Source: Tardiphaga robiniae
GTDB lineage: Bacteria > Pseudomonadota > Alphaproteobacteria > Rhizobiales > Xanthobacteraceae
DNA: 64,000 nt
Assembly: GCF_001618955.1 (NCBI RefSeq)
Contig: NZ_LVYV01000045.1
Coordinates: forward strand, 124,001 to 188,000
Direction: 5' to 3'
Shown: positions 60,060 to 62,777 of the stretch, piece by piece
How the letters are laid out: each line of letters starts with the position of its first letter
Position numbering within the stretch: the stretch's first letter is position 1
The notes under the pieces: model-generated
Database searches by the model: none
What the model saw: only the letters and a program-made list of their open reading frames with translations
Told to the model about the DNA's origin: nothing
Translations under genes and position numbers: made by a program

Positions 60060-60080
60060 ACACAGCTACATTCTTGTATG

Positions 60081-60110
60081 AAAGGCGCGGTCAGCGATGA
60101 CCGCGCCTTT
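60081..60110 (+). terminator. Intrinsic terminator of MCP copy 1
   Basis: Thirteen-base perfect arms (60081-60093 and 60098-60110) around GCGA, with a TTT run. It starts 22 bases after the stop. Confidence 0.85.
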
Positions 60111-60236
60111 CTGCTTTAAGCGCCTGCCACCAAGCCGCACACACTGCCCCTTTTTAAGATGGTCGCAATCCGTGATTCACCATTGGTAAGCACGTTGACG
60201 GTATTATTGTCTGGTCACTCACATGTCGAGGTCCAG

Positions 60237-62564
60237 ATGAGTCTGCTCAGTAACTTCACGATCCGCACCAAGCTCGTCAGCATGGTTGCCGTCTCTGCCA
60301 TTGCGGTCTGCGCGGTCATCGCGGTCGCCGCCTCGCTTAGCCAGAAGCGGATGATGGAGGACCGGATCCTGCAGCTCCGGACCGCCGTCGATATCGTCAC
60401 CGGCCTCGCGCAATCGCTGCAGGACGAAGTGGAGGCCGGCAAGATGAAGCTGCCCGAGGCCGAAGATCAGCTCCGTCTGCGCAGCCGGCGCATGTTATTC
60501 GACAAGGGCCAGGGCTACGTGCTCGCCTATCGCGCCGACTCCACCGTGATGGTCCACGGCACGCTTCCGAAACTTGAAGGCACCATCACCAACGGAAAGG
60601 ATTCCAACGGCGTCCTGATCGCATCCGCCGTCATTGCAGCCGCCAACAGCAAGCCTGAAGGTGCGACCGCGACCTATCTGTATCCACGTCCTGGACAAGA
60701 TGAGCCCCGACCGAAAGTCGTGTTCGCCCGTAAATTCGCGCCGTGGAACGTTGTCATCAGCATCGGCGTCTATGTGGACGATCTCGATGCCGACATGAAC
60801 GCCCTGCTGATGCGCCTCGGCGCAATCGGCGCTGGCGTGCTCGCGCTGATGGCGCTGCTCTCCTGGCTGATTTCCAGCGACATCCTCGGTGCGCTTCGCC
60901 GGTTGCAGTCACGCATGCATGACATCGCCAATGGCGCGCTCGACGCCAAGGTCGAGGAAACCGATCGCGGCGACGAAATCGGTCGCATGGCGGAAACGCT
61001 GGAGATGCTGCGTCAGACATCGCTGACCGCGCGCTCCCTCGAGGCCGAGCAGACCAAAATGAAGAGCCTCAGCGAAGCTGAAAAGCGCGATGCGCTGATC
61101 GCTCTCGCCAATCGTTTCGACGCATCCGTCGGCCAACTGGTCGGACTGATGGCGTCGGGTTCGACCGAGCTCGAAGCCACCGCGCAATCCATGACGGGCA
61201 CAGCCGATCGGACCAACCAGCAGGCCACGATGGTTAGCTCGGCTGCGACCGAAGCCAGCACGCGCGTCCAGACGGTCGCATCTGCCGCCGAGGAGCTGTC
61301 GTCGTCGATCACCGAGATCGCACGTCAGATGGCCCAGTCCGCCAAGATCACAGCGCATGCCGTGGATAGTGCACGCCGTACCGACACCATCGTGCGTGCG
61401 CTGGCCGATGGCGCGCAACAGATAGAACATGTCGTCGAGCTGATTCAGACCATCGCCGCTCAAACCAACCTCCTCGCTCTGAACGCCACTATCGAAGCTG
61501 CACGCGCCGGCGATGCCGGCCGCGGCTTCGCTGTCGTTGCCACCGAAGTGAAGAGCCTCGCCGGCCAGACCGCCGATGCCACCAAGGAGATCAGCACCCG
61601 CATCGCCCAGATCCAGGGCGCGACCAAGGAGGCCGTCGACGCCATTCAGGGCATCACTGCCACCATCGAGGAAGTCAGCGCCATCGCCACCACGATCGGC
61701 TCGGCCATCGAGGAGCAAGGCGCGGCAACCGCCGAGATCGCCCGCAACGTGACACAGACGGCGCAGGCGACCCAGAACGTCACCACCAATATCGGCGGCG
61801 TCAGTTCGGCCGCGCACGAGACCGGCAACGCTGCGGGCATGGTGCTGAGTGCGGCAACCGGCCTGTCGAAACAGGCCGAGCAACTGTCCGGCGAAGTCAA
61901 AACCTTCCTCGCCGGCGTTCGCGCCGCCGGACGCAGATATCCCTCAAGCACAAAGGGCGCGGTCAGCAATGACCGCGCCCTTTGCTATTTGGGGAGTGAC
62001 TGCCGATCAACGCGCGGTGAAGCCGCCGTCCACCGGCAGCGCAACGCCCGTGATGAAGGAAGCATCGTCCGAACCAAGCCACAGCGCGGCATGCGCCACA
62101 TCCTTGGCCTTGCAGAGACGGCCCATGGGCACAGCCGCCAACAGCTTGGCCTCGTTGGCCGCAGCTTCCGCGGCGACGCCCGAGCGGCCGGTGAAGCCGA
62201 GCTTCATCGGCGTATCTGCAAGACCCGGGCAGATCACGTTGACGCGAACGCCTTCGGGCGCAAAGGTCTGTGCCAGCGACTTGGTGAGGCCGACAACCGC
62301 GAACTTCGCTGCCGAATAGATCGGGCTCATCATGGAGCCGACAATGCCCGACACCGACGAGGTGAAAATCACCGAGCCGCCGCCGCGCTTGCGCATGTGC
62401 TTGATCACTTCACCGGCAGCCAGCGTGGCGGAGGTGACGTTGAGCGACATCGCGAATTCATAGGCCGCGAGATCGAGATTCTCGACGCCGGCCGGACCCG
62501 GCGTGCCGGCATGAGCCCACAGGATGTCGATGCCGCCGAGCGCGACAGCCGCATCGTTGATTGA
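60237..62564 (+). CDS. Methyl-accepting chemotaxis protein (copy 2) with 211-residue stop-loss extension
   Basis: Codons 1-564 align along the whole length with copy 1, with the same two membrane helices, sCache sensor, HAMP and signalling hairpin ([24 protein letters not shown]). Copy 1 stops after VRAA with TAA; copy 2 has GGA at that exact codon (61929-61931) and stays open for 211 more codons to 62564. The extra part is basic and low in secondary structure, reads through a perfect hairpin (61952-61983), and runs antisense over the SDR gene. A change of TGA to GGA is the simplest explanation, natural or an assembly error. The functional receptor should be residues 1-564. Confidence 0.85.
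61952..61983. terminator. Terminator hairpin shared by MCP copy 2 and the SDR gene
   Basis: Perfect fourteen-base arms (61952-61965 and 61970-61983) around GCAA, matching the copy 1 terminator core. It sits 20 bases after the expected stop of copy 2, and 23 bases after the SDR stop on the other strand. Confidence 0.85.
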
Positions 62565-62777
62565 GCTCTTCATCTGTTCGGTCTTCGACAGATCGGCCTG
62601 GATGGTGGTGAGCTCATAACCCAGCTTCTTCATGTCGGATTTGAGCTGCGCCAGCGCGTCCGCATTGACGTCGATGGCGGCGACCTTGGCACCTTCCTTC
62701 AGGAACAGTTCGACGCCGGCGCGTCCCATGCCCGATGCAGCAGCGGTGACGGCGGCGAGTTTATTGGCGAGACGCAT
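62007..62777 (-). CDS. Short-chain dehydrogenase/reductase with altered cofactor motifs
   Basis: A 256-residue SDR enzyme. The catalytic set is Ser140/141, Tyr154 and Lys158 (SPIYSAAK). The nucleotide loop is TAAASGMG at 11-18, with Ala in place of the first Gly, and the NNAG motif is replaced by WAHAG at 87-91. The acidic residue at the end of beta 2 (AIDVN, Asp36) suggests NAD(H). Relatives are annotated as various 3-ketoacyl or cyclohexanol-type dehydrogenases; substrate unknown. The chemoreceptor copy 2 extension runs antisense over almost all of it. Confidence 0.87.

Follow-up and report, generated by a model that had tools for sequence, protein, structure and literature searches.

The closest described counterparts of the arrangement considered here are arfA and brfA, whose non-stop mRNAs are reported to be handled by trans-translation (PMC8012679 for arfA, PMC6881298 for brfA), together with an engineered gene carrying a terminator within its ORF, for whose non-stop mRNA the same handling is described (PMC3989581). 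Terminator hairpins lose strength when ribosomes run into them, according to Li et al. 2015 (PMC4824070): when an ORF was extended through the E. coli terminator tR2, efficiency fell to 40% of the control, and an in vitro study cited in the same paper is credited with complete loss of termination. For natural bacterial stop losses, a literature search of openly accessible papers gave no fitting survey among the matches listed.

The window, a stretch of 64,000 nucleotides (positions 124001-188000 of a 337,644-base contig in a genome of 6.36 Mb and 56 contigs), contains a chemoreceptor gene that appears to have come into such an arrangement through a single base change. The nearest named relatives of the genome are Tardiphaga robiniae LMG 26467 and Bradyrhizobium sp. 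NFR13. Two tandem receptors, copies 1 and 2, are 80% identical in sequence, and the second faces a short-chain dehydrogenase/reductase (SDR) gene (Table 1). The sCache_2, HAMP and MCP signalling domains of copy 2 all score above their Pfam cut-offs (PF17200, 98.8 bits against 25; PF00672, 33.1 against 25; PF00015, 112 against 34.6), as expected of an sCache_2 methyl-accepting chemotaxis protein. The sequence-only reading had started from two observations that hold at the level of coordinates: the cores of both copies are exactly 564 codons long, copy 1 then ending at TAA, and the frame of copy 2, after VRAA, continues with GGA for 211 codons, through a hairpin and antisense to the SDR gene. 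Copy 2 thus lacks the family's stop after the residue matching 564. This is the departure of one gene and gives no ground for removing it from the sCache_2 family.

Table 1. Features of the tandem receptor locus, in positions of the window
Feature	Position	Strand	Basis
Copy 1, intact 564-residue sCache_2/HAMP/MCP-signal chemoreceptor, ends VRAA-TAA	58365..60059	+	ORF + Pfam (Pfam start 58368, one codon short)
Hairpin 3' of copy 1, core sequence the same as in the copy 2 hairpin	60080-60112, approximate middle 60090	+	Folding + pattern search
Copy 2, chemoreceptor core, 564 residues, ends AGVRAA	60237..61928	+	ORF + Pfam
GGA in copy 2, aligned with a stop codon in relatives (TGA for the nearest three)	61929..61931	+	Alignment
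Remainder of the 211-codon run-on frame (count starts at 61929)	61932..62561	+	
First stop of the run-on frame, TGA, reverse-complementary to TCA (SDR codon 72)	62562..62564	+	
Hairpin of 15 pairs between the opposed genes; probable intrinsic terminator	61951..61984	.	Folding, covariation
Second T to G change, within the T-run that follows the hairpin; four relatives have T, and of the five genomes compared only this one differs	61991	+	Alignment
SDR gene, PF13561/PF00106, opposed to the chemoreceptor	62007..62777	-	ORF + Pfam

Is the missing stop a peculiarity of this gene or a property of its relatives? Across 105 distinct homologous places (loci L001-L144, all with at least 66% identity and reaching residue 555), the stop falls exactly after the residue matching 564 in 103 (TAA in 45, TAG in 36 and TGA in 22). 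The remaining two are this locus and L128, which is cut by a contig end. An extension conserved in relatives, the finding by which the sequence-only reading would have given up a recent loss, is thereby ruled out. The relatives with the most similar downstream DNA, L040 (genome G016, 98.2% amino acid identity) and L069 (Bradyrhizobium sp. NFR13, 97.3%), both read TGA, after which 20 bases agree with the window (38 in L040), while Tardiphaga robiniae (L010/L068, 98.4%) has the TGA followed by bases that differ from those of the window. An indel or frameshift where copy 2 ends is ruled out as well, since the flanks match L040 and L069 base for base. The codon aligned with a stop in the relatives is thus a sense codon here, in flanks that align without an indel, and the change is best described as a one-base stop loss, T to G at 61929 (TGA to GGA), private to this genome among those compared. 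Both the proposed base change and its description as a fresh stop loss are therefore backed by the sequences of the relatives.

The rest of the gene shows no sign of relaxed selection. Private codons in the core of copy 2 comprise 5 nonsynonymous and 57 synonymous changes; the pooled figures for three relatives are 6 and 85 (Fisher p 0.76). Purifying selection thus still acts on the core, which fits a recent stop loss; a receptor that remains useful would likewise have an undecayed core. Close copies of the receptor are common in this array, with three each in G016 and G004 and two each in T. robiniae and this genome, and receptor matches in this genome number 27 at E 0.001 or better. At codons 277-278 of copy 2 (61065-61070), QM has been replaced by SL relative to three close relatives that agree with one another, a difference of about five bases that is perhaps a small conversion tract.

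The base change itself is very likely natural, and we infer that it is real in the cell. The alternative is a sequencing or assembly error, with one wrong base in the record and an intact stop at 61929-61931 in the cell. Such an error would fit the fact that a single base separates copy 2 from an intact gene, that G at 61929 occurs in none of the relatives or paralogues compared, that no decay is visible in the core and that a second private T to G change, at 61991, lies only 62 bases away. We nevertheless consider it unlikely from the behavior of other genes in the same assembly. Comparison of two stretches, 737,644 bases or about 12% of the genome, with the matching parts of the sisters G016 and G004 (the latter being NFR13) gave 292 orthologue triples, 184 in region 1 and 108 in region 2, based on simple ORF calls and with a 75% identity filter in region 2 only. 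Gene ends were alike in all three genomes in 278 triples. Private ends numbered one in this genome, namely the gene discussed here, seven in G016 and three in G004, and three could not be assigned to one lineage; one further pair with mismatched ends (A301/B284, tails of 215 and 36) lacked a counterpart in a third genome and was not among the triples. Nor was a marked excess of A:T>C:G seen among the private substitutions of this genome (5.8%, against 4.1% and 5.3%). An error-prone assembly is thus unsupported, since this genome has the fewest private gene-end changes and no such excess. Changes that look like stop losses also occur in both sisters: by-eye reading of the rows gave TGA to CGA in G004, which adds 3 residues, and TGA to TGG in G016, which adds 6 and whose direction was read without an outgroup. 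These cases argue against an error, and they also qualify the rarity that had been claimed for the event: stop-loss-like substitutions are found in each of the two sister genomes, and it is their tails, of only 3 and 6 residues, that set them apart from this one.

What lies beyond the lost stop is a strong hairpin, which starts 19 bases after the codon and closes its pairs over a loop of 4. The segment 61935-62000 folds at -38.9 kcal/mol (z -7.8), and none of 200 shuffles did as well. Of 25 tails retrieved from relatives and paralogues, four same-genome duplicates (two of L041, and L057 and L056) were dropped and 21 aligned; 93.9% of the cells in this alignment were paired, and 8 of the 15 pairs had changed on both sides. 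Shuffled alignments gave 85.0% paired and 4.0 two-sided changes, a control that ignores relatedness in a set of tails that includes duplicated copies, and versions slid along the sequence gave 35-50% paired. These figures point to pairing that has been conserved by covariation in relatives and paralogues. Elsewhere in this genome the exact pattern of the hairpin core is absent, occurring only after copies 1 and 2. The T-run that follows the hairpin is weak, with one T fewer than in four relatives because of the change at 61991, and the hairpin is not listed by a simple terminator scan. Given the weak T-run, this site may terminate poorly, and more of the long product may be made than supposed.

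Why is the run-on frame so long? Its codons lie exactly opposite those of the SDR gene on the other strand (opposed register), so that a stop in the run-on can arise only opposite a TTA, CTA or TCA codon of that gene. There is only one, the TCA at codon 72, which is the stop at 62562. Such codons are scarce on the contig (579 of 87,326, or 0.66%), and from this frequency the probability that 186 codons contain none is P = 0.29. Among 97 other gene ends on the contig that have an opposed neighbor, 9 would extend by at least 211 codons if the stop were lost, and all 9 fall among the 47 ends in the same register as copy 2 and the SDR gene. In four relatives, the same frame past the stop is open for 210, 142, 142 and 12 codons. 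The length of the tail is thus a by-product of codon usage in the SDR gene, without sign of selection and unremarkable in itself. More generally, in this GC-rich genome, opposed neighbors in matching register leave antisense frames open for at least 100 codons, and long run-on tails are to be expected wherever such a stop is lost; they are not in themselves evidence of a new protein.

The sequence-only reading had seen in this frame, provided that it is natural, a long de novo C-terminus. The 211-codon frame stands, but a stable receptor is probably not its main product, since the strong conserved hairpin lies about 20 nt past the lost stop. It could be supposed that transcription passes the hairpin, and that a stable 775-residue receptor is made and kept, with a tail that is tolerated or useful. 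The frame is indeed open to 62564, translation into a terminator is reported to weaken it (PMC4824070), the T-run is weak, weaker than in four relatives, and the core is conserved. The tail itself argues otherwise, being rich in arginine (17.5%), hydrophilic (GRAVY -0.96) and predicted to be disordered (mean pLDDT 42.9, in a fold made without an alignment). A Pfam search of the tail gave no family above the cut-off, the best being DUF6411 at E 0.041 (14.5 bits, against 25). Such a tail would, moreover, be unusual in a receptor family of fixed C-terminal length. The distance from a signalling-tip motif to the stop is exactly 149 residues in 109 of 112 distinct tails (loci L001-L254, from several genera), although the sample is biased, most of these loci having been picked as homologues. 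The length-locked tails mostly end in FLxxVRAA, also in paralogues and in other genera (the corresponding part of copy 2 is 61480-61928), and in a narrower motif search 102 of 108 ended in VRAA; a literature search for the term VRAA did not find it among the matches listed. The three exceptions to 149 are this gene (360), a copy in a metagenome-assembled genome (L072, 207) and a receptor of another kind (L223, 98). The L072 case is the second receptor copy of a Bradyrhizobium MAG, with a run-on tail of 207 residues rather than 149, and looks frameshifted. In Helicobacter pylori, loss of the last 45 residues of TlpD is reported to abolish polar localization and function (PMC13001251), which suggests that the C-terminus of a chemoreceptor can matter, although an added tail is a different change from this truncation. 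On balance, a kept fusion appears rather unlikely.

The reading that we prefer, and hold to be probable, is that the stop of copy 2 was lost recently by a natural T to G change and that the loss is damaging, by way of non-stop mRNA and a useless tail. The genome encodes an alpha-type tmRNA (157 bits) and SmpB (201 bits), and the terminator-like hairpin at 61951-61984 stands ahead of the first in-frame stop at 62562, as in arfA and brfA. From this layout and the precedents cited above, we infer the following course of events at the RNA and protein levels. The stop would have been lost in this lineage by the single change from TGA to GGA, after which ribosomes would pass residue 564 and enter the terminator hairpin about 20 nt downstream. 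Transcripts that end at the hairpin would carry no stop codon, because the hairpin precedes the first one in frame, and would therefore be expected to end up with tmRNA and SmpB: ribosomes would come to a halt some 20 codons beyond the original end, and the stalled receptor would be tagged for destruction. Other transcripts, aided by ribosomes invading the hairpin, would read through and yield a 775-residue protein with an arginine-rich tail that is predicted to be unfolded. These transcripts would run antisense into the SDR gene, and transcription opposing that gene, which the sequence-only reading had already proposed, is plausible, since terminator hairpins are weakened by incoming ribosomes. 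A mixture of non-stop and read-through mRNA is therefore expected. The net effect would probably be that the function of copy 2 is reduced or lost; with copy 1 and many further receptors still in place, this would be tolerated.

The same layout could also be a recruited switch of the arfA/brfA type, in which the level of the receptor would depend on how busy trans-translation is. In its favor stand the terminator hairpin in frame before the first stop and the presence of tmRNA and SmpB; on the other hand, no functional reason ties a chemoreceptor to ribosome rescue, and the layout occurs in no relative compared, none of the other places in the set of 105 having been seen without a stop (L128, again, is cut by a contig end). 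We regard recruitment as very improbable. A broader picture, in which one natural base change put a terminator inside a chemoreceptor gene, the level of the receptor came to be set by a race between ribosome, RNA polymerase and tmRNA, and the transcripts that escape run antisense through the SDR gene and encode a new 211-residue tail, is, taken as a whole, improbable. If true, the locus would amount to an experiment run by nature: a single substitution would tie two convergent genes together and set off the loss of a receptor or else the origin of a new C-terminus. Short of that, the damaging stop loss that we prefer belongs to an ordinary class of mutations, at a site that is unusually instructive, and it looks real and recent. 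As an apparently young and clean natural stop loss, its consequences should be measurable, and the intact sister sequences, at 92% DNA identity, provide close controls for the loss of a stop just ahead of a terminator.

How, then, does the locus compare with what is known? Like known stop-loss (nonstop extension) substitutions, it consists of a single-base change from stop to sense in a gene that is intact in other respects, with the next in-frame stop setting the tail. It differs from them in that the tail would be 211 residues long and antisense to a neighboring gene, and in that the lost stop and the next are separated by a hairpin. With the sCache_2 chemoreceptors of Tardiphaga and Bradyrhizobium, copy 2 shares the same domains and the 564-residue core, the nearest being 97-98% identical; among the 105 places, and leaving aside the one cut by a contig end, only copy 2 runs past the VRAA end. 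Finally, it resembles arfA and brfA as described (PMC8012679, PMC6881298) in that the reading frame contains a hairpin before its first stop and the genome also encodes tmRNA and SmpB. However, those genes encode ribosome rescue factors that use the layout for regulation, whereas here it is found in a chemoreceptor gene, is private to one genome and depends on putative termination at the hairpin.
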